Part shown: positions 8,897-54,801 of the stretch, in pieces | Layout: the number at the start of each line of letters is the position of its first letter | Position numbering within the stretch: position 1 is the stretch's first letter | IMG/VR virus record: IMGVR_UViG_3300034073_005046 | Location: 1 to 64,000 of that record | DNA length: 64,000 nt | Reading direction: 5' to 3' (one strand) | DNA from: a virus | Program-made: the position numbers and the translations under genes | The notes under the pieces: generated by a model | The model's input: the letters and a program-made list of their open reading frames with translations, nothing else | What the model was told of the DNA's origin: nothing | Databases searched by the model: none

Positions 8897-8908
8897 GGTT
8901 TAGCAGAG

Positions 8909-13748: not shown

Positions 13749-13767
13749 CTCTCACTTAGCTTTCAAC
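13749..13767 (-). promoter_or_regulatory. Late-type motif before 152-residue gene
   Basis: GTTGAAAGC, 4-nt spacer, TGAGA; 10-11 nt before ATG 13738. Lies in the last codons of the upstream 171-residue gene. Confidence 0.7.
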
Positions 13768-19673: not shown

Positions 19674-20214
19674 TGTTAAGAGCAAGGGTTTCAGGGAAGC
19701 GCTCTCGGAGCTGGGCGAGGGCGGAGTCGGGCAGAGAGGCGGCGAGCACACGGTAGGCATCGGCGAGGGCGGATGTACGGTCAGACTTCATCGCCGACTT
19801 ATACTGCTCACCGTCTTTGTAATTGGGCACAACAGTGTAGAATTTCTCCGACTTAATATCCTGCACGAGATAATAGTTCCGGCTCGACGCCATACCATTC
19901 TCGACAACGACGTGGCCGACTGGGAGATCGAGGGAGCCAGTATCGCCCGGATCCTTCGAGCCGGCCTCTGGCCGATAATCATCCGTCCCGCCGTAGCTCG
20001 ACTTTTCGCCGCCACCGGTTTTCGCCACACCTTTGGAGTCCGGGCTCACATTCACGCTGTGGTACTCATCTTCCTGAGATTTCCCATCGGTGCCGGTATC
20101 GTTGGCGGGGATATCATTGGGGCCCGTGCCAAATCTCGCCTCGCCGAAGTCGTAGGACACGGACTCCGGGTCGAGAGAGGTCCAGCCATACGGTGCTGTA
20201 TTGTCTTCAGTCAT
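19666..20214 (-). CDS. Hypothetical protein, disordered N-terminus, 182 aa
   Basis: Not recognised. Residues 1-90 are Gly/Asp/Ser/Pro rich and likely disordered; residues 95-180 form a compact domain with L-P-V-G-H-V-V-V, a beta-rich middle and a C-terminal helix ending L-R-E-R-F-P-E-T-L. A late-type motif variant (GTTGAAGGC-N4-TAGAA, 20230-20248) is 16 nt before the ATG. The promoter class suggests a virion or late protein although the neighbours are SSB and nrdB. The terminator of the SSB gene lies between the two genes. Confidence 0.65.
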   Translation of the reverse strand: MTEDNTAPYGWTSLDPESVSYDFGEARFGTGPNDIPANDTGTDGKSQEDEYHSVNVSPDSKGVAKTGGGEKSSYGGTDDYRPEAGSKDPGDTGSLDLPVGHVVVENGMASSRNYYLVQDIKSEKFYTVVPNYKDGEQYKSAMKSDRTSALADAYRVLAASLPDSALAQLRERFPETLALNNV

Positions 20215-20229: not shown

Positions 20230-20248
20230 CTTCTACATAGCCTTCAAC
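20230..20248 (-). promoter_or_regulatory. Late-type motif before 182-residue gene
   Basis: GTTGAAGGC, 4-nt spacer, TAGAA; about 16 nt before ATG 20214. Confidence 0.65.
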
Positions 20249-20266
20249 GGGGTGAGGTTATCTTGA

Positions 20267-26700: not shown

Positions 26701-28740
26701 TTCGCTTCCACTACCATTAATCTCAGCCTGAGATGCGAAAGCGACGGAGGTTACGGTGTTGTGGCTGCGGGAGTATTGCGGGTTATCGGTGAAAGTGAGG
26801 AGGGAGATGTAGGTACCACCAGTAACCTTGAGAATCGCCGTTCTCTCGGTTTGCGGATCGTTCTGTATCGGAGTTAGCTCGGGCACATACATCGGACGGA
26901 GCCGGACCTTACGGAGGTCAGTGCCGTCGATAGAAATACCTCGGGGGACAATTAGTCCCCCGGTCTGCGGATTCACTGCAGCGAGATTGTCGTAGAACAA
27001 TTCATCGTTGATTCCGAAGGTCCCCTGGACATATTCGAGCGTGACTACCCAATTTGAATTAGAGGCAGATAGCTTTTCGATACGGGCAATGTTGCCTACG
27101 CCGCCAGATTGGCTGTAGAGTACGCGGCCGAGGTTTAGGGACCGGGGGGGCTGATTAGAAACCGGATCGTTAACGTCGATGGTCAAGTGGACTACACGGT
27201 CGCCCTGGGCTACACTGCCAACGCTATATCCTGTACTGGTGCGTTGCACGAGACCGGTGTCTTCGGTCAGGGTGAGGGGAGCAAGGGAGCCGGGGCTATT
27301 ATCTACATAGTAATCTCCGGGGGCTAGCTCAATCAAGACGCGGTCGTAACGGTCATTGGCTTGTCCACTCCGCCTCGATTCTCTTACCGCCTCTATCAAC
27401 GCGCGTTCGAGGGTACGGAAGGGTCGGTTTGCCTCGATGCCAGCGTTACCAACCGAATCATCACCAATGGTGGGGTCGACGTAGATGGTGTTACGGGTTA
27501 CCGAGGCGACGGAAGAAGACCCTTCTCTCGCGCAGCGAGGGGCGTCACCTACACTAATCAGGCCGCCGGTTCCATTCGCATACAACGCGACGGTGGTGTC
27601 GTAGACCCTGTAGCATTTACCTAGCGTCGGGTCGGACTGTGACGGTTCGAAGCTGTATACGCCTGCGCTGGGCTCGGGATACCGGGCCGGCAACGCCGCA
27701 CCGTCAGGACATTCAGTGGCTGTACGGTCACCGATGTACTCGCGTCCGCCACAAGATAGAAATGTACCTAGGACCGGGTTACACTCAGATCCAGGTGCCT
27801 CTTCGAATTTCCATTGGCCGGTAGCCGAGTGATAGAACAGCTCGAGGTGGGCGTCGCGGATGTTGACAATCCAGTCATCGGATGAATTGTTTAACAGCTC
27901 TGTGCTAATGGAATTGGTACGGAGGATTAGTGGGAACCGATCAAACGTGCCAGAGATATCCACAACCGCGAAGCGATCGGAGTCACTAGGAGATTCGGGT
28001 AAAGTTACAATAATGCTGCCATTACTGGTGTCCGCAATGACGCGGTCCCAAGCCTTTGCGGTGTAATCAGCAGATTTGATCGGTGTATTGGCGAGATTCT
28101 GAGGGTAGGAGTTAAGATTACCAACAAACGTGTTCGGACGCAAATCGATGTAACCCGTACCGACTACTTCATTGGTTAAGGGGTCGGTGGCTAGGCCGTC
28201 TCCTGTGGAGTTGAGGGTGATTTTAGCGAGGGGGATATGAGCTTCGGTTACACTCGGCAATGAATTGCCGATCGAGACGGTCAGTGGATTGGAGCCGTCA
28301 TCGAGGACGTAGAGGTAGGAGACGCTGTCCGCTCCGCCGAGGATCTGCACGGTCTGACGAGCCCAGGAGACAGGATTTCCAGTACGGCTGACAAAACTAC
28401 CCGCCTCGACTGTTACGCCGATGCTACCGGCCCCAGCAGGACGGGTTGCAGGTACGCCAGGCACAACCACTGACGCAGTCGTTGCGTCCCAGCCGAGGAC
28501 AATACCATCATGAGCTGTACGCCCTAACGCGGATTCCTGATCGATGCGGGGATCGGCTATCTCCCAATCCTTGATTCGGTCGCGTTGTCCGATTTCCCAG
28601 CCCGCCTCATCAGAAGTAGTAGGTTGACCGTAGTAATCGGTACGGATATCACCAGTAAACTTCGAAGCTTTCTGGATTTCATTCAGATAAGCACTGGATA
28701 CGGTCTTGCCGTTGCTAAATACGATCTTGTCCACAGACAA
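23758..28740 (-). CDS. Giant tail fibre with beta-helix segment and C-terminal S74 chaperone
   Basis: A 1,660-residue fibre. About residues 415-500 carry the G-D-D ... N-R-P-F-R-T-L-E-R-A-L-I-E pattern followed by L-A-P-G-D-Y-Y-V-D-N, as in the large fibre proteins of marine cyanophages and other pectate-lyase-like beta-helices. The last 90 residues are a peptidase S74 (intramolecular chaperone) domain: S1571-D-F-R-L-K starts it, with the G-L-I-A-Q-E-V and Y-x-x-L-V-P-L-L motifs; the domain helps trimerisation and cleaves itself off at the Ser. The start is TTG 28740 (or GTG 28734); no ATG is near. A late-type motif is 12 nt upstream. Confidence 0.85.
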   Translation of the reverse strand: MSVDKIVFSNGKTVSSAYLNEIQKASKFTGDIRTDYYGQPTTSDEAGWEIGQRDRIKDWEIADPRIDQESALGRTAHDGIVLGWDATTASVVVPGVPATRPAGAGSIGVTVEAGSFVSRTGNPVSWARQTVQILGGADSVSYLYVLDDGSNPLTVSIGNSLPSVTEAHIPLAKITLNSTGDGLATDPLTNEVVGTGYIDLRPNTFVGNLNSYPQNLANTPIKSADYTAKAWDRVIADTSNGSIIVTLPESPSDSDRFAVVDISGTFDRFPLILRTNSISTELLNNSSDDWIVNIRDAHLELFYHSATGQWKFEEAPGSECNPVLGTFLSCGGREYIGDRTATECPDGAALPARYPEPSAGVYSFEPSQSDPTLGKCYRVYDTTVALYANGTGGLISVGDAPRCAREGSSSVASVTRNTIYVDPTIGDDSVGNAGIEANRPFRTLERALIEAVRESRRSGQANDRYDRVLIELAPGDYYVDNSPGSLAPLTLTEDTGLVQRTSTGYSVGSVAQGDRVVHLTIDVNDPVSNQPPRSLNLGRVLYSQSGGVGNIARIEKLSASNSNWVVTLEYVQGTFGINDELFYDNLAAVNPQTGGLIVPRGISIDGTDLRKVRLRPMYVPELTPIQNDPQTERTAILKVTGGTYISLLTFTDNPQYSRSHNTVTSVAFASQAEINGSGSESPYYSRLNNLFKDIDGWGSEGLEAIPAETTIVAPIAGSKTNRSQDIEENQTGLLVDGGDSRAGAPVAYPGATRIRDTDGSILPLPDINSTRSSSPYVFNCSVRSIFGLNGLWADGGRVGGFKSMVTANFTQVSLQTDPNCYLPTTYFQDPPTNKETGSGKQYKTSTPDPFKYRHFGMRGSNDATIQIVSVFVIGNSDHFVSESGADLSITNSCSDFGDISLRSIGYKQKPFSQDEGITAPGYSGTRLSEVIPPLPLRYACKIDNLGNIIDDGKCFKDRGPTLVDTEINTGLVIDYEKTEAYVLANAVGFSAPAEIRVYFENSDGANPFSLNNPPSYSNAAFGQFSYTKKLTDGSYDHASGSTYVNRRRIYINGFDEGGNSILYTGEIQLASNQNLGFSSLDDRSKVFEWDTNESAWYVKVRTGDVVEETTDDDGDGYLLKRLDYAFRFKLAPGTAPNTAISDIDFIFDRSSIKIIRAVDARKNDERVYRVILSGFDKLLAGVRRPQPYYVLERQEAASSEALNGSAALASDPLTITQITPYNDIFRPGVQSPLDLDKFVTYLTNGSTARQVFTADVFPSINLDEPELTEDPADSITKIALELLKERPGIYFDGEIAPGTERFVIKARSNSTTPGILINLRRPSVIRASGHTWEWTGYLNYDTAFPTFQGDPLEAEYALGKIIVEENGGRVYATGMNEEGSYYIGTTVFDLRSGEQFSIPLKADTEPGNVTNQVLNNVIIKNTLLMNDDSKIILNDGTQIILNKNTEIVSNTGPITPDTKAKSYATEEYAGFVQLAKRQDIEGARNLIGLKGVSDKVVVSALQLAQELDTRLSGFITAGEGVSVQVTPNNAGTDSPDDDFNTYEVSIGQNVATNANVTFNTVTATSDICAFSDFRLKQNVTSLTESLEKVEKLRGVSYELKADPGTDHLGLIAQEVKDIVPEVVLHDSASDMYKVSYQSLVPLLIEAVKELSARIKKLEDN

Positions 28741-28752: not shown

Positions 28753-28771
28753 CTTCTATTTGGCTTTCAAC
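28753..28771 (-). promoter_or_regulatory. Late-type motif before giant fibre gene
   Basis: GTTGAAAGC, 4-nt spacer, TAGAA; 12 nt before the TTG start at 28740. Confidence 0.7.
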
Positions 28772-28791
28772 GAGATTTAGAGATGTGTACG

Positions 28792-29271: not shown

Positions 29272-29289
29272 GATGTGAAATTTTTTCCT

Positions 29290-29307
29290 GTCTACTGGGC
29301 TTTCAAC
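29290..29307 (-). promoter_or_regulatory. Late-type motif, leftward half of divergent palindrome
   Basis: GTTGAAAGC, 4-nt spacer, TAGAC reading left; 18 nt before GTG 29271. Its first box is fused back to back with the rightward element. Confidence 0.75.
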
Positions 29308-29316
29308 GTTGAAAGC
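29299..29316. repeat. 18-bp perfect palindrome at divergent late promoters
   Basis: GCTTTCAACGTTGAAAGC: two late boxes joined head to head, serving the 159-residue gene (left) and the baseplate operon (right). Confidence 0.9.
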
Positions 29317-29325
29317 AGGGTAGAG
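29308..29325 (+). promoter_or_regulatory. Late-type motif, rightward half, opens the baseplate operon
   Basis: GTTGAAAGC, 4-nt spacer, TAGAG; 13 nt before the TTG start at 29339. Forms the 18-bp palindrome GCTTTCAACGTTGAAAGC (29299-29316) with the leftward element. Confidence 0.75.
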
Positions 29326-29338
29326 AACATCATTTAAG

Positions 29339-36700: not shown

Positions 36701-36838
36701 TTGGGTCTTGGTGAAAGAGAGTTGAATAGTCTGGGAGACATCTCCCCCTCTGACCTAGAGTCAGTCAACTCTGATCTCGGTGAAAGCACCTTATACGACA
36801 CGATTGTTGGTCGGGAGGGCCAGACCGATTGTGAATAA
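33797..36838 (+). CDS. Baseplate spike/hub protein with gpV/gp5-type OB domain
   Basis: A 1,013-residue protein. Residues about 33-100 form a gpV/gp5-like OB-fold: A-D-V-N-D-P-K-K-L-G-R-V-K-V, W-V-P-V-A-G, I-G-A-R-V-L-V, Y-V-L-G-V-V. In phages this domain starts the central spike below the hub. Residues about 120-310 hold Cys-containing repeats of a small beta motif; 380-640 is Ala/Gly/Leu-rich helical with glycine-zipper-like stretches; a C-P-C-D-P-K-C cluster occurs near 655; the C-terminal third is helical. The size greatly exceeds a normal gpV, so it is likely a fusion or expansion. Its stop overlaps the terminase start. Confidence 0.7.
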   Translation: MTENPFKGLVAATEIQQRIVESLGVPFADPFNEEAIIADVNDPKKLGRVKVTTSDGITSQNWVPVAGSSRGTLSARYIGARVLVTKRDGRSENMYVLGVVRNDPEVGVTGNPIQLPIIDESMGVWNNTVSDEGMKCNEGNEGKVYILSTEMNQDVVVCLRRTSKQVGNKSAWAWKSLTNGLWVEKGYNPGNETTPAISQSQRNNPGIPACTESLLGEVHEFTEDRGFRTTTMVCRRDENKDYNWMPLSSPPVFFRTTLPKCSEKVHGMEAVVDDGNNSEFMVCQRYQGLMRWVRQGRRIPHKFYGNEKPLSRVQFTTRFNQISALEEDISLSENDKWQETEDMIDIAFDETIKDVPLTGTDPKLKALLQAAGLVPATAFDGAQTMRRVASEALRKRTGLPIETITALIREDLDRDGVLTPATAQALEGVGRTVDVLVNGVADGDIEGALLGIGQTTLRNALLSLEPRAASVMTGLMSGGIMGAVDSAVAIGLDQLPPEVNKYVSPVLGIAKNFLLSSYPKSLENILSSASGGGLLGAVSSTVNGAIGNNIVTPQLLSTLATGLTSGNFGDVSKLFGSLGNLDQIAKLPAPADSLPALATTALGIAGQAEAMKNLLGEGGIGLDNLDQLMGGGFSAATTIVSGVKGLAGLFGGSGSLGCPCDPKCRKTKHGEDSDNNNLIEPCGAMTANNANSATPTGNPLLNNIGPIAEALKLLPTDVGADLIPKNIRDVSRMIASNQRVRDMAETVYSTRFADQVDKIAEDTYTAEAVEKTVKVIDNNITRIESVEKKLIDTLYNLLAAVVYDKKLSGRDPAILPTLIRDIRENSQAIKDLYRFTAKLDRVKNGGTAGVNVTTSIAKSFQNIPDLQALIRLNRKKALELLRNGVTPAYREWKSMDPGFGLSTKLGAYDPPIPDPYGSEKTLFNKDRILAISIESKVGDNSPPEDNTTLDLALSSQQLNRLKSASTRSLGLGERELNSLGDISPSDLESVNSDLGESTLYDTIVGREGQTDCE
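36393..36414. repeat. 9-bp inverted repeat inside the spike gene
   Basis: TTCAGGCGT-TGAT-ACGCCTGAA, perfect with a 4-nt loop. A second one, CTCGAACC/GGTTCGAG, is at 36001-36020. Confidence 0.75.
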
Positions 36839-38411
36839 AGCGCAGAGAGATAAGGAGAAGGAAATAGTATTGGAGATGTCGAAAGACATTGAGAACCTTT
36901 CCCTGTCCGATAAAAAAGAGCTACTTAGGCTTCGATGTCGCACTGAGTTTATAACTTTCGCTAAGTTTATAACTCGAGAAGTAAGTACTAATGGTGTTTT
37001 CGTGCCATACAAAGTACACTCATTGATTTGTGATTATGTACAAGGGATTTGTGATGGTGAACCGAAATACCGTAGAACCGTAATTTCTTTGCCACCTAGA
37101 ACAGGTAAATCTTTGCTTCTTTCTAAATTAATGCCCACATGGCAGTTAGGCAGGAGTCCAACGGCACAATTTATTCTAGCTTCGTATGCCCTTAAACTAA
37201 GCCAAGAAGCCAGCCGTTCTATCTTAGCTTATACTACAAGCGAAGCATTTCACTGGGTATTTCCAGAATGTGAAGTTTTGGAAAAAAATTCTAATTTAAA
37301 AACTATAAGGTCCGAGCAAGGTGGACTAATTATGTCCGCATCGGCTGGTGGTGGTGTAACAGGTTTTGGCTACGGAGTAATTAGCGAAGATGATTTGCCA
37401 GGAATCGGCATCATGGATGACTTACTTGAAGATGGTAATTCTCCACAAGTCCTTGAATCGGCATTTTCTTGGGCAGCAGCTCAGTTTCTCACTAGAGGTT
37501 TGCCAAATAACTGCGTAGCTAGCATCGGAACTCGATTCCACAAAGAAGATGTTTCAGGTAGGCTTATCTCTAGTGATCCAGAAGGCTGGTTACAGTTGAA
37601 TGTCCCAGCCCTGTGTATGGACGAAGATAACGACCCGCTGGGAAGAAAACTAGATGAATCACACTGGCCTGAGTTTTTCCCCACTTCTGCCCTGGAAAGT
37701 ATCAAGAAACAGGATCCCAAGACGTTCGAAGTACTGTATCAAGGTCGGCCGAGCGGTGAGAGCGGGGCGATATTCAAGGATTTTTGGTTTGAGTACCATG
37801 ATAAAAACAAAGAGAACTACGAGTATATCTACGCTTCCGCTGACACCGCCTTGAAGAAAGGGGAGATGAACGATTCGTCTGTAATCTGTATTTTCGGTGT
37901 CGTTAAAAGGACTAGGAAACTTCACCTGCTCCATGTATATAAAGAAAAAATGGAATTTCCCGAACTCCTTAAGGCTATGCCGTTGTGGCTAAAGACTTGG
38001 CGTGTCCGAACCCTGTATATCGAAGCGAGGGCTTCTGGTCTCCCTCTTATACAAATGCTCCGCAAGGAGCTGCAGATACCTGTGCGTGAGGTCATCCCGA
38101 CCAAAGATAAAATCGCTCGAGCCAACGAAATCGCTCCGATTGCGGAGGAAGGACGGATCTCAATCTACTCTGATATCCCTAACCTCGGTGAGCTGATGGC
38201 CGAGTTGACAGCTTTCCCGTTTACAAAACACGACGACTTTGTGGACAGTTTTGTCCTCGGTGTGACTGTATTCCGCGATGAGATTATGGGGTCGGCTAAG
38301 GCGGCTCATGGCGGTAGCCGTATTCATCTTCCACAAGCAAACCACACTAGCGGCTTACAACGGACGACAAGTCGTCTGGGACGAGGATCGTTGAAAACGA
38401 CGTACATGTGA
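36831..38411 (+). CDS. terL: Terminase large subunit
   Basis: A 526-residue packaging motor. Walker A is P-P-R-T-G-K-S (88-94); the ATPase Walker B-type segment is G-I-M-D-D-L-L-E-D (about 195). The RNase H-like nuclease is visible as S-A-D-T-A x8 N-D-S-S-V (about 335-352), Y-I-E-A-R-A-S-G (about 395) and K-H-D-D-F-V-D-S-F (about 464-472). It cuts and translocates phage DNA into heads. Start is GTG 36831 inside the end of the spike gene; a longer open frame is in-frame with coding of the spike gene and is rejected. DNA from about 36840 to 37690 (ATPase part) is AT-rich, the nuclease part is not. No small subunit is seen nearby. Confidence 0.92.
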   Translation: MNKAQRDKEKEIVLEMSKDIENLSLSDKKELLRLRCRTEFITFAKFITREVSTNGVFVPYKVHSLICDYVQGICDGEPKYRRTVISLPPRTGKSLLLSKLMPTWQLGRSPTAQFILASYALKLSQEASRSILAYTTSEAFHWVFPECEVLEKNSNLKTIRSEQGGLIMSASAGGGVTGFGYGVISEDDLPGIGIMDDLLEDGNSPQVLESAFSWAAAQFLTRGLPNNCVASIGTRFHKEDVSGRLISSDPEGWLQLNVPALCMDEDNDPLGRKLDESHWPEFFPTSALESIKKQDPKTFEVLYQGRPSGESGAIFKDFWFEYHDKNKENYEYIYASADTALKKGEMNDSSVICIFGVVKRTRKLHLLHVYKEKMEFPELLKAMPLWLKTWRVRTLYIEARASGLPLIQMLRKELQIPVREVIPTKDKIARANEIAPIAEEGRISIYSDIPNLGELMAELTAFPFTKHDDFVDSFVLGVTVFRDEIMGSAKAAHGGSRIHLPQANHTSGLQRTTSRLGRGSLKTTYM

Positions 38412-38413
38412 GT

Positions 38414-38433
38414 TTGTGTGTTATAATACACAA
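38414..38433. repeat. Inverted repeat over thioredoxin/sigma promoter
   Basis: TTGTGTGTTATAATACACAA: nine of ten positions are symmetric; the -10 TATAAT is at the centre. Operator-like. Confidence 0.7.
38419..38427 (+). promoter_or_regulatory. Extended -10 promoter before thioredoxin and sigma genes
   Basis: TGTTATAAT, about 29 nt before ATG 38456, at the centre of a 20-bp inverted repeat (38414-38433) that could be an operator. Confidence 0.65.
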
Positions 38434-38455: not shown

Positions 38456-38782
38456 ATGACTGACACTAACGATTTTCGCTACAGGGTCGTGTTTTTCACA
38501 CAAAACGGATGCCCAGCCTGCGATGCCATGGCTCCCATCTGGGCGAAAGTCGCCGGGGAAGTAGCTGAAGAGTACCCAGAACTACAAGTGGGTTGGGGAG
38601 AATTTAATGTCCTTGATGACAACTGGGAGTTTTTAGAGTCTCTTGTTCCCGGCGAATCTGGCAACGGAACCCCCGAATTCGCCATTTTTGATGAAGATTG
38701 CGAACTCATCGCATTTAACGGCGACGGGATCATGCCCGCCAGCCAACTCAAAGATTTCGTAATCTCCTCGATTCGTAAGTAA
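38456..38782 (+). CDS. Thioredoxin-like protein
   Basis: A 108-residue thioredoxin fold with the redox pair C19-P-A-C22 and the cis-proline loop G-T-P-E-F (71-75). It could reduce ribonucleotide reductase or other phage or host targets; thioredoxins are frequent in cyanophages. An extended -10 (TGTTATAAT, 38419-38427), inside a near-perfect 20-bp inverted repeat (38414-38433), lies about 30 nt before the ATG, so it is not only a late read-through from terminase. The sigma factor follows 4 nt after its stop, so both are likely on one transcript. Confidence 0.85.
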   Translation: MTDTNDFRYRVVFFTQNGCPACDAMAPIWAKVAGEVAEEYPELQVGWGEFNVLDDNWEFLESLVPGESGNGTPEFAIFDEDCELIAFNGDGIMPASQLKDFVISSIRK

Positions 38783-38786: not shown

Positions 38787-39503
38787 ATGGATTTGAATTC
38801 TAAGCACCGGGGTAGGAAGCGCACGGAGTACGAGGTTACCCGGGACAGGCATATCCGCGAGAATATGTGGAAAGCGGCTCATGTAGCGAGGAAGGTATCG
38901 ACGTTTAGCGGCTTACCTTTCGAGGATCTGAGGTCCGTTGCCCTCGAAGCGATGGTCAAACTCTACGACAAGTGGGATCCGAGCCGGGCGAACTTCAGTA
39001 CGTGGCTGAATCGGTCACTTACGTTCCAGGTTCTTAACTACCTTCGCGACCACTCCCGGATGATCCGAATGCCAAGATTGTATGCCGATGTATACATGAA
39101 GATTCGGAAGATCATTGGGGCGAATCCGGACATCTCGGATTGTGAAGTGGCCGAGCAAACCGGTCTCGACGAGATCTTGATACGGGAGACGAGAAAGGCG
39201 TATCTTGTGACGTATACCGAAATCAATGAAGATACGGAGATGCCCGTTGAAGACGAGGAGCTGGACAAAGATACGTTGCCCAGGATGTTAGAGGACTACA
39301 AGGGTACGTTAGAGCGTTTGGCCGATTTACCCGAATCGGAGTACGATTTTCTCGTCGATGTGTACGTACACAAACGGGCTTATTCGACCATCGCTAGGAA
39401 AAACCCTGGCATCTGTAATGCCGAAAAGATACGGGCGAAGACAAACGAAATTATGGAGAAAATCTTGACCGAGGAGGATGACCCGTGGCCAGGAAGTATG
39501 TGA
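38787..39503 (+). CDS. Sigma-70 family RNA polymerase sigma factor
   Basis: A 238-residue protein with recognisable sigma-70 regions. Region 2 lies at about 25-97: F-E-D-L-R-S-V-A-L-E-A-M, K-W-D-P-S-R-A-N-F-S-T-W-L-N, and I-R-M-P at its end. A region 3-type helix-turn-helix is at about 100-140 (S-D-C-E-V-A-E-Q-T-G-L), and a shorter region 4-like C-terminal helix pair is at about 185-230. Such proteins direct host RNA polymerase to phage promoters. It is cotranscribed with thioredoxin from the class TGYTAnAAT promoter, i.e. expressed with middle genes, which fits a switch to late transcription. I infer it reads the GTTGAAAGC-N4-TAGAG elements. Confidence 0.8.
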   Translation: MDLNSKHRGRKRTEYEVTRDRHIRENMWKAAHVARKVSTFSGLPFEDLRSVALEAMVKLYDKWDPSRANFSTWLNRSLTFQVLNYLRDHSRMIRMPRLYADVYMKIRKIIGANPDISDCEVAEQTGLDEILIRETRKAYLVTYTEINEDTEMPVEDEELDKDTLPRMLEDYKGTLERLADLPESEYDFLVDVYVHKRAYSTIARKNPGICNAEKIRAKTNEIMEKILTEEDDPWPGSM

Positions 39504-40195
39504 CGGTTCTGGGGACCCAGTACAACAAGAAGGGGCTTGGAGCGAAATGGTCGGAGGTTGTCGCCTCGTATGAGGTGGGGGTGACCGTGGGTCCGGAGGA
39601 CTTCGCGTTCATCACCGACATACTACAACGGATACCGCGCTTCTCTAAAGTGTTGGCCCGGGGAAAACCGGTGTATCGGGTGGTTAACAAACGATTTAAC
39701 GGTAAGGTCGTCAAAGGCATCGTCCTGGTGACACCGAATTCGGGCTACGAGGTGTGGGTAGGGAAGAAAGTCATCATAGATGCGATGTTTCCGCCAATCA
39801 ATCTCCCCAACCCTGCCAAGCAAAATCGCCGCGATGCGTTGCGGGCGATGCGGGGAATCATCGAACCTCAGATACAACAGTATCGTCGGAGGTTTGCGGG
39901 CAAATCGGTGATCAAGTCGTCGTTGACAGGCAAGCCGATCCTCGGGCCGTATCACGTCGACCATGTGTATCCGTTTGTGAGGCTGGTCGAGGAGTGGTGC
40001 AGGGAGAGGGGGCACGATCTCGAGACGATACCGGTTAAGTGTCGGGGAGCGAGTTGCCGATTTGAGTCGGTGGACATGGCCGAGGACTGGTTTGACTATC
40101 ACGCATTTCACGCGGAATTCCAGGTCCTCGATGCGTCGGAGAATACCTCGAAGGGGTCAAGATACTTTGGGAGGAGTAAAGATTCGGTCGAATAG
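39485..40195 (+). CDS. DUF3223-like protein, possible nuclease
   Basis: A 236-residue protein. The C-terminal half contains L-T-G-K-P-I-L-G-P-Y-H-V-D-H-V-Y-P-F (about 145-162), then F-D-Y-H-A-F-H-A-E-F-Q-V-L and N-T-S-K-G (about 202-225). That pattern matches what I recall for DUF3223 (also found in a plant chloroplast protein) and looks like an HNH-style arrangement of His/Asp/Asn, so an endonuclease is possible. The function is not established. The first 60 residues are a separate basic domain. It overlaps the sigma gene by 19 nt and its 3' end overlaps the opposite-strand gene by 39 nt. Confidence 0.6.
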   Translation: MARKYVTVLGTQYNKKGLGAKWSEVVASYEVGVTVGPEDFAFITDILQRIPRFSKVLARGKPVYRVVNKRFNGKVVKGIVLVTPNSGYEVWVGKKVIIDAMFPPINLPNPAKQNRRDALRAMRGIIEPQIQQYRRRFAGKSVIKSSLTGKPILGPYHVDHVYPFVRLVEEWCRERGHDLETIPVKCRGASCRFESVDMAEDWFDYHAFHAEFQVLDASENTSKGSRYFGRSKDSVE

Positions 40196-43682: not shown

Positions 43683-44402
43683 TTAGCCAACAGTGCCGAC
43701 GATGGCGGTGCCGCCGGACCCAGTAGCCGATTCCTGGCCCGCCTCAGTGGTGTCGATTTCTAGGCTGACAACATCTCCTACGGCGAAACCGTCGCCACCA
43801 TCAACGATGGCGGTTAGAGCGGTGATCACACCGGCCACTATCGTGGCCTCGACAACTGCGTCAGCGTATTGGTCGGGGTCAGTCTGGTCGCCGAGGGCGA
43901 GGGTTGCCAAGAACACAACGCCAGTCTCGTCTTCATCCGCACCGTCGATGGTGTAGCCGCTACCGCCCTCGTCAAGAGTCAGAGTGAGAATCGGGCCGAC
44001 GGGAGTCACGTTATCTAGGATTTCGGCCAACACCACACTGAGGTCGTAGACAGCCACCATGAAGTGGAAGTCTTCTTCGCCAGCAATACCCACGTATCGG
44101 GTCACATTAACGAGCTGGTCGTTGAGACGGGAAACATAAGCGCTGGGAACGTCCGGATTATTGACCAACGCATCTACGATTAGCTCGAGGGTGCCGTAGG
44201 CGAACTTCTTCGCCTCAAAGCCCATGCTCGGGCCGCAGAGGACAAACTGATCTTTGAGCGAGGTGCGAGCGGAGGGGGTGTTGGAGCCGGTATCGTACTC
44301 AAGTACGAGTTTGTTGGCCAATGCGTCGGTGAGGAAGGTCTGAAGTTCGCGCTTAAACTCGAACTGAATACCAACCAATTTCTTAAGTGTTGCTGCGGAC
44401 AT
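43683..44402 (-). CDS. Virion structural protein, 239 aa
   Basis: Not assigned to a named family. The N-terminal 130 residues are helical with the start S-A-A-T-L-K-K-L-V-G; the C-terminal 100 residues are a beta domain with G-G-S-G-Y-T and G-G-D-G-F-A-V-G-D-V-V-S-L, a small module frequent in phage structural proteins and present also in the 524-residue gene at 49673-51247. A late-type motif (44427-44445, second box weak) and a 7-bp inverted repeat (44420-44437) precede it. It heads the operon with the hub hydrolase. A tube, collar or decoration role is possible. Confidence 0.65.
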   Translation of the reverse strand: MSAATLKKLVGIQFEFKRELQTFLTDALANKLVLEYDTGSNTPSARTSLKDQFVLCGPSMGFEAKKFAYGTLELIVDALVNNPDVPSAYVSRLNDQLVNVTRYVGIAGEEDFHFMVAVYDLSVVLAEILDNVTPVGPILTLTLDEGGSGYTIDGADEDETGVVFLATLALGDQTDPDQYADAVVEATIVAGVITALTAIVDGGDGFAVGDVVSLEIDTTEAGQESATGSGGTAIVGTVG

Positions 44403-44426: not shown

Positions 44427-44445
44427 TCTTCGTATAGCTTTCAAC
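44427..44445 (-). promoter_or_regulatory. Late-type motif before 239-residue structural gene
   Basis: GTTGAAAGC is intact (44437-44445), but the second box reads CGAAG. A 7-bp inverted repeat CTATACG/CGTATAG (44420-44437) covers the downstream half, perhaps a regulatory hairpin. Confidence 0.6.
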
Positions 44446-44450
44446 GAGAT

Positions 44451-44780
44451 TCAGGCTACGCGGACCTTGAGGATACTGCCTGTTCGATAAAGGCCGCCCA
44501 CGGCGACAGCCGGATCCGCTGCTGCGGCTGCGGAGTCGTCAGCGAACTCCCTTAAGCCGGTAAAATCGATTCGGTCGTAGGCGATAGCCGTATTACCATT
44601 CACCGTCTTAGCCACGCCGTCCAACCCGACATAGTACAGCTCCTCATGGATCTCATTGAGGAACAGCTCACCCCGCTTCGCGTTAGCGGCATCGGTATCG
44701 TATAGATCTTGGACGTATTGCTGGCGTTTCGTGGTGTCGGCGGTGAACCGGACCCCCCAGCGAGGCATAGGAACAGTCAT
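44451..44780 (-). CDS. Small virion protein, 109 aa
   Basis: Not recognised. A compact protein with an aromatic N-terminal half, an acidic Ala-rich loop (D-D-S-A-A-A-A-A-D-P) and a basic end. It has its own strong late-type motif (GTTGAAAGC-N4-TAGAG at 44798-44815), 17 nt before the ATG, so it may be made in large amounts. It is immediately followed by the 239-residue structural gene, and divergent to the P-loop kinase gene. A decoration or minor tail role is possible. Confidence 0.65.
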   Translation of the reverse strand: MTVPMPRWGVRFTADTTKRQQYVQDLYDTDAANAKRGELFLNEIHEELYYVGLDGVAKTVNGNTAIAYDRIDFTGLREFADDSAAAAADPAVAVGGLYRTGSILKVRVA

Positions 44781-44797
44781 TTGAAATCGTTATCTCT

Positions 44798-44815
44798 CTC
44801 TACACTGCTTTCAAC
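44798..44815 (-). promoter_or_regulatory. Late-type motif before 109-residue gene
   Basis: GTTGAAAGC, 4-nt spacer, TAGAG; 17 nt before ATG 44780. Confidence 0.75.
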
Positions 44816-44832
44816 GCCTGGCTACGCCAGGC
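44816..44832. repeat. 7-bp inverted repeat upstream of kinase promoter
   Basis: GCCTGGC-TAC-GCCAGGC between the two divergent promoters of the 109-residue and kinase genes. Confidence 0.7.
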
Positions 44833-45463: not shown

Positions 45464-45468
45464 GCAGT

Positions 45469-45486
45469 GTTGAAAGCTAGGTAAGG
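45469..45486 (+). promoter_or_regulatory. Late-type motif upstream of phoH leader
   Basis: GTTGAAAGC, 4-nt spacer, TAAGG. Unlike all others it is 90 nt from the start codon it faces, with an intrinsic terminator between. Confidence 0.65.
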
Positions 45487-45532
45487 GTTGAGGACAAGCC
45501 TTTGACCAGAGAAACTAACCTCTAATCCGGTG

Positions 45533-45563
45533 TGCGGACACGTTCTCGTGGTCCGCATTTTTT
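45533..45563 (+). terminator. Intrinsic terminator between kinase gene and phoH
   Basis: TGCGGAC/GTCCGCA stem with an inner ACG/CGT pair, loop TTCT and one bulged G, followed by TTTTTT. It ends 13 nt before the phoH ATG, so phoH expression requires read-through or initiation within the hairpin. Confidence 0.8.
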
Positions 45564-45576
45564 GTATCTATTCAAC

Positions 45577-46335
45577 ATGCCTAAAGCACGGACGAGAAAA
45601 GAGAAGGTGACAGAAGCCTCTGTCCCCGGATACGATGAAATTGCGTATGGGATTCCAGCGACGCGTGGTGACGGGGTCTGCTCGATCCACCCGAGAAACG
45701 AGAGCCAGCGCGAGGCGTTGGAGTATTTGCGGACCAAGACGCTCACGATTCTCACTGGCCCCCCTGGAACAGCGAAAACCCTCCTCTCTGTCTACATCGC
45801 ATGCGAGAAGCTACAAAAGCGCCAAATCGATAAGATCTACTACATCAAACCGATTGTCGACACGCCTGGAGAGAAAGGAATCGGATATCTCCCAGGAGAT
45901 GAGTCGCAAAAACTCGAGCCACACATCGCCTCGCTTCGCGACGCATTGAGTGTGTTCATGGCGAAGGGTAAGGCCGACTATCTTATCGACAAAAAGATCA
46001 TTGAGTTCCTGCCCATCGAACACCTACGAGGCAGATCACTACACCGGTGTATGATTATCGCCGACGAGATGCAGAATGCGACGAGCCACAGCGTGCTCAC
46101 AATCCTCACTAGGCTGGGCGATCACAGCAGTATCGCGATGCTGGGCGATGTGGTTCAGAGGGACTTGGCGAATCGCTTTGGCAAGGATGGCCTTTCCGAT
46201 GCTGCAAGACGCCTAGGATCTGACACCGAACACATCGGCCATGTAAACTTCGGCTTCGACGATATCGTTCGCTCGGAGTTTGTCAGGAATGTGATTCTGG
46301 CTTACTCCGACCTCTACGAGAGCCGGGCGGCGTAG
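45577..46335 (+). CDS. phoH: PhoH-family ATPase
   Basis: A 252-residue PhoH-type P-loop protein: Walker A G-P-P-G-T-A-K-T (61-68), the segment Y-Y-I-K-P-I-V-D, G-Y-L-P-G, Walker B I-I-A-D-E-M-Q-N (about 163-170) and the R-x-G x5-8 I-A-M-L-G-D sensor stretch near 188-200. PhoH-like genes are hallmark auxiliary genes of cyanophages; the function is uncertain (RNA/phosphate-related ATPase). I chose ATG 45577; an in-frame GTG at 45532 lies within a hairpin. No clear Shine-Dalgarno. A late-type motif (45469-45486) lies upstream but is separated from the gene by an intrinsic terminator (45533-45563). Confidence 0.92.
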   Translation: MPKARTRKEKVTEASVPGYDEIAYGIPATRGDGVCSIHPRNESQREALEYLRTKTLTILTGPPGTAKTLLSVYIACEKLQKRQIDKIYYIKPIVDTPGEKGIGYLPGDESQKLEPHIASLRDALSVFMAKGKADYLIDKKIIEFLPIEHLRGRSLHRCMIIADEMQNATSHSVLTILTRLGDHSSIAMLGDVVQRDLANRFGKDGLSDAARRLGSDTEHIGHVNFGFDDIVRSEFVRNVILAYSDLYESRAA

Positions 46336-46538: not shown

Positions 46539-46547
46539 TCTCTCAAC
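46529..46547 (-). promoter_or_regulatory. Weak leftward late-type motif after phoH
   Basis: GTTGAGAGA, spacer, TAGAG reading left, back to back with the rightward element. Leads to ATG 46513 of a doubtful frame through a leader with GGGAAAAAAGTTCAC, similar to that at 29271-29289. Confidence 0.45.
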
Positions 46548-46564
46548 GTTGAAAGCAGTATAGG
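46548..46564 (+). promoter_or_regulatory. Late-type motif before 1,031-residue structural gene
   Basis: GTTGAAAGC, 4-nt spacer, TAGGA; 16 nt before ATG 46581. Confidence 0.7.
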
Positions 46565-46580
46565 ATTAGGCGTGTAAAGC

Positions 46581-49500
46581 ATGGCGACTCGGGTCGACGG
46601 AAACAGGGAATTATCTACTCTTCCTGAGTCTACTTTACTTCGAAAACTTAGGCTGAAGGTGCCTAGGCGCGAGGGCCAAGCGAATTTCATCGGCCTGAAG
46701 AGAAGTAATGCGTTGTCTGATGTCTCAGATTCTGGAGAGACTCTGGACAACATCCTTCGAAAGATCTCCCTTCTCGATGCAGCAGAGAGTAATAGGTACG
46801 GTGGTCCGTACAACGGGGTTGACTGGAGCGTAACTTCTGACTTCGTAGACGAAAATATAAACAAACAGTTTCTTCTCCCCTTATCCGGAGCGAGTATTGG
46901 TGGGGGATCGTTGGGTAGTCAGGTCTCCACCGACCCTAGGATTCGCATCGAAGATCGGATTAGCCTCGCCGGATCGTTTGTGGGAGATGGCAGCTACCCC
47001 GGTCTGCACAACGGACCTGATGCCCAGTTTTATAAAGACCCTGGACCACAGGAAATTGGATACATAGAATTTAGTTTTTCTGGCAGCAGTGTAACAGTAA
47101 CCCAGCTTAAGAATCCCGACGAGGTTACTAATCTGTTGGTGTCAGAGATACTGGGTGACCAAGACAGTGTTGTTCTAGACATAATCGGCTACGCCGACAT
47201 CGACTTATCGGGATCAGGAATCTCCTTAAGGATAGACTCCCTCGGGCCTGCATGGACGGTGGAAAGCGGCCTGAGTGGTCTGAATCAGATACGTAGTATA
47301 CTTGGCACGACTGAGTTTAATTCCACCTTATTTCGGATAAGTCGTGACTACTCCGTGCTCAATCCTCCTATCTGGTATACGGATGCCCCTGGCACAGAGT
47401 ACGATGAGTTTAAGGTTCGGGAGAACGTTGATGGGACTTTGAGGTCGTTGGTGGCTAAGAGCTACTGGTATAGCCGAGAGTACGTAGAATCGAGGTGGTC
47501 GGATACTGAACGCAGCCTAATTGGTAGCAATAGTGTCGCTCAAGACTCTAATATGAGGTGGGCGGATAACCCCTCTCCACTTCGTGGAGAGCAGTACAAT
47601 TGGGGGATTAGGTGGGATGGTTACTTGAGGATAGCCCCGGGAATTTACGGTCTACAAGTACAAACAAACGTCGATGTCCGTATCGATTTGGGCATAGGAT
47701 CCTCTAGCCCATACTGGGAAAATATCTTCGATACCAGATCTAACTCCGCCAAACAGTCGGAAGATCTGTATATATCCTCAGCGACTTTCAGTACCCCTCA
47801 GGTCAACGATCTGTTCAAGTATGCGACGGGAGATGGAGCTGATGACTGGATCGCGTATGTTCCTATTACCATCCGGATGTTCAGAGGTGGCCCGGATAGA
47901 TCGGATCTAACTCTGCAGATACCAGATGAACCCAATCTGTTCATCAAAACCACCCCTATATCCGCTGAAACGACATTCTACTCCCAAGAACACGAAATTA
48001 CTCTAAGCGGTACGGATGGAAACTGGAGTGTCGCGAGTGGGACGTTGAGCCAGATCATCGATGTGCTGGAAGATACGAGTGCGTCGGTTAGTTATCAACT
48101 TATTGGCCTAGGGGATACGATATTTATCTCTCCCATTTCCATAAACCTTACAACCGATGGTACGCTGGTGACTAGCGATACGACCGGCTTAGCAGCAGAA
48201 ACCTACACCCTAAGCATATCCCCATCTCGTAGTTCGGAGTTCGATAGTAATCTGACCGCTTTGTGGAAAGGACGCATCGCATCACCGAGTCCGAGCCACC
48301 AGACGTATACCGATCTCATTGATGGGAGTTATACGCCCGATCAGCAGAAAGTAGATTTCCAGTCTCGGCCGGAGTGGTGGAAAGTCAGTGAGGGACATCC
48401 GTTTGACAGAGACTTGACATTGTCCGACAACAATACACCGTTGGATGGTCTACTCAGGAATAGCTTTAAGTCTACTTTATCTTCTGATGCTCCTAATATC
48501 GGGTTATACGGAGACGGGTTGGGCGTATACTCATCTCGTCCCAATATCCTTATGGGCGAAGCGAGATATGATGTGGGATCTGATAGCCCAGGCTCTAACT
48601 ACATCGGGGTGTTGCTGGAGGCTAACAGACTGGGAGAGGGAGGTCGACTCATTGTCAACGCCCTGCCCATCAACAACTCCACTTTCTCTGCGGCCAATAG
48701 GCTAGGGCAAAACGACCTCGGTGGAGACCCAAATCACAAAACTTTAGCTTACAACAATGTAACTGACCGCATCGCTCAGATGTTCTTGTGGAACCCGGTC
48801 ACACCAGATGGCAATGAGAACAAATACTATCTGCATTCCGATTTGACCGCGTTGTCGGCCAGCGACGATCCTACAACTCTCGGCTTCCCTGCCTTCTCCG
48901 ATGCCACCTGGCTATCTCCCGTAACCATCTCAGCCACTGAAGTAGCCGATGATGATCTGTTTACCTCCGAGGTGGCCGGCTTCGTATCTCCCCTGACTCT
49001 GTCGGTAGAAAAAGTAACGGTCGGGGGATACGATATCCTCGGATTCAGCACGACGTTGCCCTCGATCCTAATCGGCGGTTCAGAGGTCGGCCAGTTTAGT
49101 GGGAAGTATGTTAAGTTTTACAACGAAACCGATCTCGCATTTCAGTATAAGTTTGTTGATACGGGGGAAGGAATTTCTTTCTCAGACATCTTGAAGCTAA
49201 CCTATAATCCTGGGTTCAACGCCACCCTGAGTGAGATTCCGAAGCCCCCTTCAGACCGGGTAACCCCGTTTGGTTTTGATCTGCCAGAGTACGGAGGCGG
49301 TCTGTGCTATCCGCCGTACGCTATCAATAACCCTCTACTCGAGGATATCGCCATTGACGATACCAACCTCTATGATGATCAGGTTGCTGGGTACTACGAT
49401 GTCTTTTGGGGTGACCATACTAAATCGGACTTAGGAGGTAATACTCTCACCATTACTGAAAAGCTCGAGTTCAACTCTACCGATATCGCCAGCGTAATCA

Positions 49501-49676
49501 CTGAGTTAACTCCCACTGAACTCCTAGATACCGCGCTAAACTCCTCGGATTATACCCACAGGCTTAGAATCGATGTCGCCTTAGACCCCACTCTCTACGA
49601 TACCGACCAAATCGAGCATATCGGAAATGGGGAAAAAGTAAAAGATTCGTATTACGCCTACGTCAACCTTGACTAG
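46581..49676 (+). CDS. Large beta-rich structural protein (baseplate/fibre)
   Basis: A 1,031-residue protein, not recognised. A helical N-terminus (about 1-70) precedes long beta-rich domains. One region (about 335-385: W-x-G-Y-L-R-I-A-P-G-I-Y-G-L-Q, then V-D-V-R-I-D-L) has the look of a PA14-type carbohydrate-binding domain but is not certain. Serine, aspartate and threonine are abundant, as in phage fibres. A late-type motif (46548-46564) is 16 nt before the ATG, facing away from the phoH region. Its end overlaps the converging 524-residue gene by 4 nt. It could be a receptor-binding or baseplate wedge protein. Confidence 0.6.
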   Translation: MATRVDGNRELSTLPESTLLRKLRLKVPRREGQANFIGLKRSNALSDVSDSGETLDNILRKISLLDAAESNRYGGPYNGVDWSVTSDFVDENINKQFLLPLSGASIGGGSLGSQVSTDPRIRIEDRISLAGSFVGDGSYPGLHNGPDAQFYKDPGPQEIGYIEFSFSGSSVTVTQLKNPDEVTNLLVSEILGDQDSVVLDIIGYADIDLSGSGISLRIDSLGPAWTVESGLSGLNQIRSILGTTEFNSTLFRISRDYSVLNPPIWYTDAPGTEYDEFKVRENVDGTLRSLVAKSYWYSREYVESRWSDTERSLIGSNSVAQDSNMRWADNPSPLRGEQYNWGIRWDGYLRIAPGIYGLQVQTNVDVRIDLGIGSSSPYWENIFDTRSNSAKQSEDLYISSATFSTPQVNDLFKYATGDGADDWIAYVPITIRMFRGGPDRSDLTLQIPDEPNLFIKTTPISAETTFYSQEHEITLSGTDGNWSVASGTLSQIIDVLEDTSASVSYQLIGLGDTIFISPISINLTTDGTLVTSDTTGLAAETYTLSISPSRSSEFDSNLTALWKGRIASPSPSHQTYTDLIDGSYTPDQQKVDFQSRPEWWKVSEGHPFDRDLTLSDNNTPLDGLLRNSFKSTLSSDAPNIGLYGDGLGVYSSRPNILMGEARYDVGSDSPGSNYIGVLLEANRLGEGGRLIVNALPINNSTFSAANRLGQNDLGGDPNHKTLAYNNVTDRIAQMFLWNPVTPDGNENKYYLHSDLTALSASDDPTTLGFPAFSDATWLSPVTISATEVADDDLFTSEVAGFVSPLTLSVEKVTVGGYDILGFSTTLPSILIGGSEVGQFSGKYVKFYNETDLAFQYKFVDTGEGISFSDILKLTYNPGFNATLSEIPKPPSDRVTPFGFDLPEYGGGLCYPPYAINNPLLEDIAIDDTNLYDDQVAGYYDVFWGDHTKSDLGGNTLTITEKLEFNSTDIASVITELTPTELLDTALNSSDYTHRLRIDVALDPTLYDTDQIEHIGNGEKVKDSYYAYVNLD
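47573..47591. repeat. 8-bp triloop inverted repeat inside 1,031-residue gene
   Basis: CTCTCCAC-TTC-GTGGAGAG, perfect. Confidence 0.75.
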
Positions 49677-51251: not shown

Positions 51252-54200
51252 TTACGGGTTGACTAGGTCGGCCGGATCATATCCAGCGTCGATGATTGAT
51301 TGGTATCGTGTGGTGGAGTTTGAGTACTCAGTAGATACGATGGTAGGGGAGGTGTCAGGGGATCTGTAAGTAAAGCCTAGGTCTATCAGGATACCCCTAA
51401 GGTTTTTAAACAAAATGGCGACCGGATTCTCCTCGATGATTTGCCTTTTGTCCGTTCGGGTCTTGTAATACGTACCGCTCACCAGCGATCCTGGGATAGA
51501 TACAGTGCGTGTTCCTACCTGAACCTCAACTGTGGTGGTGTTACCCTCCTCATCGGTAAGGGTTCTTTCCTCGTAAACCTTAAACAGTTCGTTTCGATAC
51601 AACGAAGTAACAACATCGGATGCAGCGGAAACTGTTACTGGGAACACTTCGGATTGGGTGTAATTTTCTACCCCCGCCTTATTAAAGGCTAACCTAACCC
51701 TGCAGTTACTAAAGCGTCTACTTGCATCGAGGGTGGAGACTTCGGAGATTATTTCTCGTATCTTCTCAGTGCTTAAGCTATTCCTAGAGAGATCGATAGT
51801 GATTCTTCTGCTATTGCCCGTGAAGATTTGGCTTAAGCTGCCGGACTCATAGCCCGATATAGAGTTTGCGCTGAGGTCGAGGGCGGGATAGGAGTCGTCT
51901 CGTATATTAGAGAGGTTGGCACGGATGTTAAGAGTACCAGACAACTTACAATTACTCGCCCTAAACACAAGCAATGAGCTAAACCCTGTACCGAACCAGT
52001 CAGAGGTGTTGATGGTTCTCCGTACGAAGTAGAGAGGGGATGGGACTAAGCCGGGTATATCAGAGTCTATGGTAACAGTCGTATTTGTGACAGACAAGAC
52101 CCTTGCGAGATCCGGACCCCCCTCTGATGCTCTGATTACGTCGTTCACTTGGACCAACTGCTTGAAGTTACTTGCACCGGTAAGGGTATAAACGTTGTCG
52201 TCAGGGTCGGTTTGCGTAGATCGGACCATAGAAAGTCCAGAAACAGATGTCGATGAATCCGAGTCATTGACGTATTTGCCTCTCACCGCTGCGACTGACC
52301 AGTCGGAGGGATAGGTGGAAGGCAAAGAGTTGCTGATGTCTACGGTTTGAATGTTGGTGGTAGATGTACCCTGGAAAGTTGGCAATAAGCAGCCACTACC
52401 AGATGCGTTCTGACTATTAAACACCAGGCTACGGACATCTCTGGCAAAATAGAAGTTCGATGAGTTGATGCTGAGGTTTCTCAGATCGTAGAAGTTACAG
52501 AGAGGAGAGTATATGCTGATCGATTTGGTGTCTGTCTCATACTGTAGTTTGAGTGGGAATACTGGGAATTTACCGGTTAGCCCGCTGCGCTCGGTGTTTA
52601 GAGAGGTAAGGTTGTGTAGGTTATCCAGATCTCTGTTTCTAAAACGATAGGCTGGTGAGAAGTAGTTTACCGTCAGATCTGTCAACCTATGTTCGTTTCC
52701 AAGGGAACGAGAGGTGGCGAAGCTGGCGGGGAGAAGGTAACTTATCCCATTCGAGACCACAGCGCTGATGGAGTTGCAAGCCCCGATGTTTAGGGATTCT
52801 AGGCTTCCAGTATCCAGGGAGGAACCGAGGGTAGGCATTGGCCCGGTTGTCCCAGATCCGTACAGGGAAAGGGAGCGGAGCTTCGGTACACGTAGAGGGG
52901 AAGTCGGGCTAACGAACTGTGCTCCGCCGGAGAACGAGGCGCCGAGGGAAACCAGATTCTGCCAAACCGCACTCTGCAGATCGATATCGATGTTGGTGTA
53001 AGTGATATCGATGGAAGTAGTTGTCCCCGTCCAATTCGACCAGGATTCGGAGGGGTCGTTGATATAGCCGGTCAGATTGTTAATTCGACCATAGACTCCG
53101 GCTACATTAAACGAATTTATCTTATACTTGGAGATGTGGCTAGGGCCATTGATTGTGTTGTCTGTATCCGTTGCCGATGTACCAATCGCTTCGATGGGTC
53201 CAGAGGTCCCCGTTCCACTCACATTGTAGTCTATAATTCCGCCGTTGTTATTAATCTTGGGCGGTGTACCAAAGATTACTTGAATATCGAGATTATTCGA
53301 CCAAGAGACTGAGCGAAGGTTGGGGAAGATGTCGTCGAAGCGGGGATTTCGGCCGTAGAATCTACCGCCTAGGGAGATAGAGGTGAGGGCTGAGAATTGG
53401 CGATAGTCGGTACCTGCGGTGCGAGATTGGTTGAGGATATACTTCTCGAACAACTGATCTGACCAGTCATCCCCGTCTTCATTAATCATCGCACCGGTCT
53501 TAGGGATAGTCAGGTATCCCGCTGCGGTGTACAAGGGGTGGGAGAAAGAAGGTGTGGCCGATGAATTCCTAATATCGAACCAGCCCATTGGGCCGCTACG
53601 CCAGGTGTCGCCGGATCCGGAGAGGTCGAGGGTGGTAAGCGTGGTTCGGAGAGTTTTTAGCCAGAGGGGTAGGATTGTCATCGATCCTCCGGATACTCTA
53701 AAAGTCCGAAGGTTATTAAACCCTACCAGGCCGAGATCTTTGCGGTCCGGGAACTCCCTGATATCGATGCCCTCAAACTCGATGCCAGCCACCTTCTCCG
53801 GGTTAACATAGAGGTATAGGTAGAGGTCGTAGAGGTTCTGGTAACCGGTACTTGTAATATCGATGTCGAGGGTGTACGTACTGGATCCGGTTTGCTGAAA
53901 CTTTTGGTCTACTGGTAGGAAGTCTACGGCAGGTGAGTTAGGCCTTTGTTGGGCAGGTTGGATCTGGTAGCCGAAGAAGTAGGGGGCTACGGAGTCGGTG
54001 AATGTAAATCTGACTCGGCCTGTAGCCATCCGGCAGTACACCCGGAGAGGGGTATTCTTTGTGGCGAGTAATCTGACTGGGGTTATTGTTCCTGTATTTC
54101 CATTATCGATGTTTACGGTTATGGCGTGGGACGGGTTTTCGACGATGGGCGATTTAGCCAGAAACGAGGTTTTTGGTAGTATGATTCTATTTACGTGAGA

Positions 54201-54761: not shown

Positions 54762-54777
54762 TCCGGTTATACTACCC

Positions 54778-54796
54778 CTCTATACGAGCTTTCAAC
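54778..54796 (-). promoter_or_regulatory. Late-type motif before LRR protein gene
   Basis: GTTGAAAGC, 5-nt spacer, TAGAG; 17 nt before ATG 54761. Confidence 0.7.
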
Positions 54797-54801
54797 GAAA
54801 C

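Follow-up and report, generated by a model that had tools for sequence, protein, structure and literature searches.

The virus studied here raises the question of which protein reads its late element, and the open reading frame at positions 38787 to 39503 (plus strand) offers a candidate. This frame lies in the window, a stretch of 64 kb out of a 69,859-base viral record, and encodes a SigF/SigB-like protein of 238 residues that begins with ATG. A preliminary description had taken the product for a phage sigma-70-type factor and for the probable reader of a non-canonical late element; our analysis confirms what was observed and, to the extent that sequence can do so, bears out the interpretation. 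The protein appears to be an alternative sigma factor of the S-TIM5 lineage, and it very probably reads a late element that we define as CGTTGAAAGC-N4-TAGAG. This reading is suggested because the box co-occurs and co-varies with the sigma and precedes virion genes, and because the operon of the thioredoxin-like gene and the sigma (Trx-sigma) itself carries a host-type -10.

Region 2, the part of a sigma that binds core polymerase, reads the -10 and takes part in melting, marks the product as a genuine sigma-70-family protein. Residues 29-91 (38871 to 39059) match the Pfam family Sigma70_r2 (PF04542) at E=6e-10, with 39.2 bits against a cut-off of 24, and residues 18-202 match PHROG 351, 'RNA polymerase sigma factor', at E=4e-14. 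Pfam reports PF04542 for all thirty members of the sigma family, each of the twenty-two lineage records contains one sigma region 2, and regions 2.2-2.4 form the best-conserved part of the family. In the alignment of the window's clade, 19 of 26 columns in regions 2.3-2.4 are invariant and none of 16 in the 4.2 recognition helix. The preliminary description had seen clear sigma regions 2 and 3/4; region 2 stands on Pfam and PHROG, whereas regions 3 and 4 are predicted from structural models and weak profiles. Sigma70_r3 matches weakly in six of the thirty members, HTH_24 is reported in 23/30 and falls under its cut-off in the four members scanned singly, and region 4 has no Pfam match in any of the thirty.

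Structure prediction, which had been proposed as a check, gives the full helix order of sigma2, sigma3, linker and sigma4. Two AlphaFold models of the window sigma (mean pLDDT 70.9 and 76.5; pTM 0.33 and 0.36) place sigma2 at residues 14-89, sigma3 at 97-143 with three predicted helices at 97-139, a low-confidence 3.2 linker, and then a sigma4-like part whose five helices (164-227) follow the sigma4 order; at these pTM values the helix order is readable and the domain arrangement is not. Aligned by VIA-align on the whole chains of sigma-28, sigma-S, sigma-B and sigma-70, the window sigma gives a Z of about 10 and an rmsd of about 20, and Foldseek whole-model superpositions give TM 0.3-0.4 with rmsd mostly about 20. 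Among viral models, SigF of cyanophage S-TIM5 comes closest. The best profile matches belong to group 3 (SigF/SigB/SigG), the type of cyanobacterial SigF and B. subtilis SigB (SigBFG and PRK07408 SigF), although they fall far under the curated cut-offs (TIGR02980, 37.8 against 234 bits; PRK07408, 33 against 261). Synechocystis SigF is described as reading the boxes TAGGC (-32) and GGTAA (-12) (PMC2758279). A scan of genome contigs gave no cellular relative among the thirty stretches returned, and phiEco32 and 7-11 are not among the 40 records that a tblastn search with the window sigma lists from 50,697 phage records (E<=0.1). The tryptophan pair that lies beside the -10 in sigma-A (WW in the alignment) corresponds to R76 and S77 in the window sigma, so its -10 contacts would differ from the usual ones.

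The surroundings of the gene bear out the earlier statements that the sigma is encoded after thioredoxin and driven by the other promoter class. Directly upstream lies a thioredoxin-like CPAC gene (38456 to 38782), the first of the Trx-sigma operon, with sub-threshold Pfam Thioredoxin matches. It is preceded by a host-type extended -10, TGTTATAAT (38419 to 38427), and by the terminase large subunit gene (36780 to 38411), which is the upstream neighbour of Trx-sigma in S-TIM5 as well; all three lie on the plus strand. A CxxC protein precedes the sigma in all 28 loci read in the window's sigma clade (CVAC in S-TIM5), and the Trx stop and the sigma start often overlap or else lie a few bases apart. 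Over the same 28 loci, counted unweighted with near-copies and loci sharing a contig included, an extended -10 akin to TGTTATAAT precedes the Trx gene in 25, compared with 1.8% of random 150-nt stretches; the other three lack the host-type pattern, and a late box within 460 nt upstream of the sigma is found in none. One-mismatch TGTTATAAT boxes also lie upstream of the genes for ribonucleotide reductase small subunit (19513), dUTPase (15590) and a polymerase/exonuclease (13020), and several of the eleven TGTTATAAT-type boxes listed in the window with an open reading frame behind them are inside long genes. Trx and the late sigma are joined in all the clade loci read and in S-TIM5, and no conserved sigma cysteine explains the linkage; redox control of the sigma by its neighbour was accordingly set aside, no cysteine being conserved through the sigma family. 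The 3′ end of the sigma gene is overlapped by a gene at 39485 to 40195, with S-TIM5 gp109 in the same place. Its product has no Pfam or PHROG match, and the stretch HVDHVYPF suggests, by eye, an HNH-like or DUF3223-like protein.

The late element first noted at 29299 to 29325 is real and better defined as the unit given above. The window holds 24 copies of CGTTGAAAGC with at most one mismatch where 3.5 would be expected, a number reached by none of 100 shuffles, and the ten exact copies all lie near the starts of tail, structural or unknown genes. When boxes whose 100-nt surroundings are at least 80% identical are merged (101 reduced to 64), the non-redundant copies from the window and its relatives show, after N4, T in 58/64, A in 49/64 (G in 14) and G in 46/64, and the logo of these 64 sites shows no conservation further downstream. 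The box itself hardly varies: sites with a downstream T, purines and a long open reading frame comprise 31 exact copies, six with one mismatch (five of them at the first base) and none with two. Two scrambled words gave 0, 0, 1 and 0, 0, 0 such sites at zero, one and two mismatches. A start codon of an open reading frame of at least 80 codons lies 15-62 nt downstream of 50/66 boxes, compared with 19% of random positions. The distance from box to start codon varies (28-57 nt, sd 6.8). TAGAG keeps a fixed spacing from the box but not from the start codon, and was therefore rejected as a Shine-Dalgarno sequence.

Within the window the boxes precede operons and not every gene. On the minus strand, late elements lie at 234 to 253, upstream of a gene whose start lies at about 213 and which continues past the window's left end, at 8878 to 8897 (gene 7126-8859), 13749 to 13768 (gene 13280-13738), 28753 to 28772 (tail-fibre gene 23758-28740), 44427 to 44446 (gene 43683-44402), 44797 to 44816 (gene 44451-44780) and, with a spacer one base longer, 54777 to 54797 (gene 51252-54761). 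Two further minus-strand elements carry one mismatch, GGTTGAAAGC at 2738 to 2757 (gene 248-2728) and CGTTGAAGGC at 20230 to 20249 (gene 19666-20214). On the plus strand, CGTTGAAAGC-N4-TAGAGA at 29307 to 29326 precedes the rightward structural operon, an element at 46547 to 46566, adjoined by a degenerate divergent copy, precedes gene 46581-49676, and a probable element with one mismatch (TGTTGAAAGC, 45468 to 45487) precedes the PhoH-like gene 45532-46335. Gene 13280-13738 has no assigned function, encodes 152 residues and lies inside the replication block; the comparable block of S-TIM5 has a virion gene with an element (138596).

We further note that boxes stand back to back at 25 places in the loci read, near-copies included, where they share CG (GCTTTCAACGTTGAAAGC) or lie a few bases apart, mostly at two recurrent genome positions. 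In the window such late boxes are found at 29299 to 29316 and 46540 to 46555. At the former site, the palindrome GCTTTCAACGTTGAAAGC, the plus-strand element shares CG with a divergent minus-strand element (29289 to 29308). Many relatives (L005, L007, L009, L011, L013, L026 and others) have, at the same gene junctions, pairs that share the central CG and make up a palindrome of 18 bp. In the counterpart pair of S-TIM5 (at about 122.79 kb), two GTTTAAAG boxes are spread 11 bp apart, and between them lies CGTGGAAAGC, one mismatch from the box of the other clade. Two polymerases could hardly occupy back-to-back boxes at once.

Co-occurrence of sigma and motif in relatives had been set as a test, and the two are found together. 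CGTTGAAAGC occurs in 21 of the 22 sigma-bearing records, in up to 15 copies (the one miss is a 10.9-kb contig), whereas its reversed-word control occurs in none of the 22. Scanned with a 16-letter form of the box, the viral collection yielded 24 stretches in 21 contigs, of which 14 belong to the S-TIM5/window lineage, so that the box can serve as a search tag for this lineage. Eight of these contigs are sigma-bearing loci already in the set. The motif without the sigma, named in the preliminary description as evidence against the interpretation, was found in the other 13. Six of them contain 2-9 boxes each and encode S-TIM5- or window-type proteins, and are thus other fragments of the lineage; seven contain a single box and no S-TIM5- or window-type protein in the stretch fetched, which for two of them means 2-3 kb compared out of 39-58 kb. 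Most lineage records are fragments, S-TIM5 being the sole complete genome. The IMG/VR records of L050 (G028, 46.5 kb) and L057 (G033, 39.5 kb) show eight box sites with the same mutual spacing in opposite orientation, and the sigma-bearing records of L011 and L010 come under their sample numbers too; the former may be missing parts of the latter genomes.

Nearly all sigma-bearing relatives searched carry either the CGTTGAAAGC element or a sister element, GTTTAAAG-N5/6-TAG. The nearest isolate relatives are S-TIM5, through its SigF (gp108), and S-TIM54/61/66 (genus Aurunvirus), with about 42% identity over 88% of the protein and, in S-TIM5, the same gene order of terminase, CxxC Trx-like protein and sigma. 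S-TIM5 contains an exact CGTTGAAAGC only once, inside a gene, and its late genes carry the sister element, with GTTTAAAG mostly 5-7 nt before TAGA where TAGA is present. In place of the G of the window's clade the S-TIM5 box carries T; its flanking C and C are unfixed, and its spacer from GTTKAAAG to TAG is mostly 6 nt, compared with 5 in the window's clade. In S-TIM5, 17/47 virion, 1/41 replication or auxiliary and 7/123 hypothetical genes have GTTTAAAG within 75 nt upstream, and no other word among the 560 of the same composition exceeds 3/47 virion genes. The split between gene classes is imperfect, because the window element at 13768 lies in the replication block and an S-TIM5 box at 6754 precedes a glucosyltransferase gene. 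Over whole records, GTTTAAAG-N5/6-TAG occurs in 10/10 sister records and in 2/10 of the window's clade (one copy each), with controls at 0, and it is absent from T4; CGTTGAAAGC occurs in 3/13 sister records, one copy each. In the S-TIM5 group, de novo 8-mer enrichment gave GTTTAAAG the fifth-highest ratio (49 upstream stretches, with 3.15 expected). The box is not among the eight words listed for the window's clade or the 14 for the pooled third group, because start-codon words dominate at low counts, and box counts in these two groups rest on targeted searches.

A deeper search for the sigma added a further group at 41-50% identity, and the sigma tree comprises 49 sequences, including 17 of the 29 new loci considered (L085, with a stop codon within the stretch, was left out of alignment A2). 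Among sites with the downstream signal and an open reading frame, counted unweighted with same-contig or near-copy loci included, the box letter is G at 66 and T at none in the window's clade (18 sigmas), and G at 4 and T at 71 in the other 31. The letter tracks the deepest, fully supported split of the tree, with L070 (one G, no T) as the exception; ten of the 49 sigmas have no majority of either box type (L028, L074, L075, L076, L088, L093, L108, L111, L113 and L126). Early branches of the window's clade (L025 and L064) keep GTTGAAAG, with a varying flanking C, which looks like an intermediate between the two box types. Because the sigma tree calls for essentially a single G/T change, the switch demonstrates joint inheritance and not recognition, and any protein inherited with the sigma would co-vary equally.

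How the sigma would read the element depends on where transcription starts. Probably regions 2.3-2.4 and 3.0 read the box as the sole, -10-type element, and transcription starts within TAGAG, where T would be -1 and A would be +1. A start at TAGAG places the box at about -15 to -6 and gives leaders that average 22 nt, with a minimum of 13; such a promoter would have no -35 element, and sigma4 would mainly hold the polymerase. The same sigma could also use TAGAG as the -10, with sigma3 or a displaced sigma4 contacting CGTTGAAAGC further upstream at about -25, in an unusually compressed two-box promoter, an arrangement that we regard as possible and somewhat doubtful. It would fit the helix-turn-helix parts predicted in sigma3 and sigma4 and the fixed 4-nt spacing at which T (58/64), A (49/64) and G (46/64) follow the box in the window's clade. 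As a start site, this T-A-G is more conserved than usual bacterial start sites, which would suit TAGA as a -10. However, leaders would then average 11 nt, with a minimum of 2 and fewer than 5 nt in 8/51, and the box is constant even though the recognition helix of sigma4 has drifted. In addition, sister-group boxes lie at differing distances from TAGA (mostly 5-7), as box-to-start distances do. The leaders, the invariance of regions 2.3-2.4, the variable sister spacing and the layout of phiEco32 promoters thus lead us to favour the single -10-type element. The Shine-Dalgarno position proved uninformative as an arbiter of geometry, since by the rule used 48/51 genes in the window's clade and 28/30 on the S-TIM5 side have no recognisable one.

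Readers other than the sigma were also weighed. An unrecognised phage activator could bind the box and recruit the host holoenzyme, with the phage sigma acting on other targets such as middle or host genes. Most sigma elements are shorter and less rigid than the box, as its 31 exact, six one-mismatch and no two-mismatch sites illustrate, and the sigma and such an activator would share one history. We nevertheless consider an activator unlikely: in the logo of the 64 sites no host-type -10 keeps a constant spacing from the box, a lone promoter has one box and a divergent pair has two back to back, unlike a dimer site, and no other motif was seen for the sigma. A MotA-type activator was rejected, PF09114 being absent from S-TIM5 and nine lineage records with T4 positive. 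Single-subunit RNA polymerase promoters are short rigid blocks with a purine-rich start, and the element, taken as a short block promoter ending in GGGTAGAGA, resembles them. A phage polymerase of this kind is nonetheless the least credible reader, and was rejected as a candidate, because the T7-type family (PF00940) is found neither in the complete S-TIM5 genome nor in the 22 lineage records, while the T7 control is positive. Hardly more credible is a signal for translation or RNA processing in place of a promoter, or a sigma that is an unrelated passenger gene. The element does lie near start codons, and 48/51 late genes lack a Shine-Dalgarno sequence by the rule used; yet the start-codon distance varies over 28-57 nt while the box-TAG spacing is fixed, divergent back-to-back copies exist, and window boxes stand before operons and not each gene. 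The contrast drawn earlier with the gp55/gp33/clamp system of T4 also holds, as neither gp33 (PF16805) nor the T4-type sliding clamp (PF02916) is found in S-TIM5 or seven lineage records, with T4 positive for both. These absences of other readers are weak evidence from the fragments and firmer from S-TIM5.

With the window sigma as the reader of the box, host RNA polymerase carrying the host primary sigma would transcribe the Trx-sigma, nucleotide and replication genes early or in mid infection. The phage sigma would then bind the host core polymerase and direct it to CGTTGAAAGC-N4-TAGAG, turning on the virion genes, and the sliding clamp, the gp33 co-activator and a phage RNA polymerase would all be unneeded. 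This scheme resembles that of phiEco32 as described in PMC8948821, where the host sigma serves early genes and gp36 with host core serves middle and late genes, at promoters with a single conserved element and a start 6-8 bp downstream; we propose the same division of labour and the same one-element layout for the window. It differs in that gp36 is described as having no region 4 and reads tAATGTAtA, whereas the window sigma has a predicted region 4 and an unrelated box. The same source presents gp47 of phage 7-11 as a late sigma and states that, between sister phages whose sigmas differ, the late promoters at comparable positions of the genome differ too (PMC8948821), a pairing like the one seen here. 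The 7-11 promoter, in contrast, is given there as bipartite, GTAAtg-(16)-aCTA, with a -35-like element, and the closest homologues of gp47 as sigma-24 proteins. T4 likewise uses a phage sigma for late genes without a -35 element, according to a T4 review (PMC2988020), but its sigma is split into gp55 and gp33, a clamp is used, and its promoter sequence differs from that of the window.

Phage sigmas that run late genes are thus already known from phiEco32, 7-11 and T4. What appears new is the late element with its architecture, the natural one-letter switch of the box, and a SigF-like late sigma that is not split and has a rigid promoter of its own. Among the literature titles and abstracts searched, no paper treats S-TIM5 late promoters; an earlier report of the motif, for instance in the 2012 PNAS paper on the S-TIM5 genome, is possible. 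The two box types are ready-made sigma-promoter pairs, one base apart, and because S-TIM5 has been isolated and its host strain, Synechococcus WH8102, named, the claim is directly testable. The T4 review asks why gp55 and gp33 are never fused into one late sigma (PMC2988020), a question to which the S-TIM5 lineage seems to offer an answer: a contractile-tailed phage whose late sigma is unsplit and which lacks the T4-type clamp. Taken jointly, these observations may well describe a myovirus lineage that runs its whole late programme by one unsplit phage sigma and an almost invariant 10-bp promoter with no -35 element, clamp or co-activator. Such a lineage would hold a natural co-evolution series from GTTTAAAG through GTTGAAAG to CGTTGAAAGC, along which the late promoters of one sigma clade all shifted in concert, and back-to-back copies sharing two bases would make its divergent late operons mutually exclusive for polymerase.
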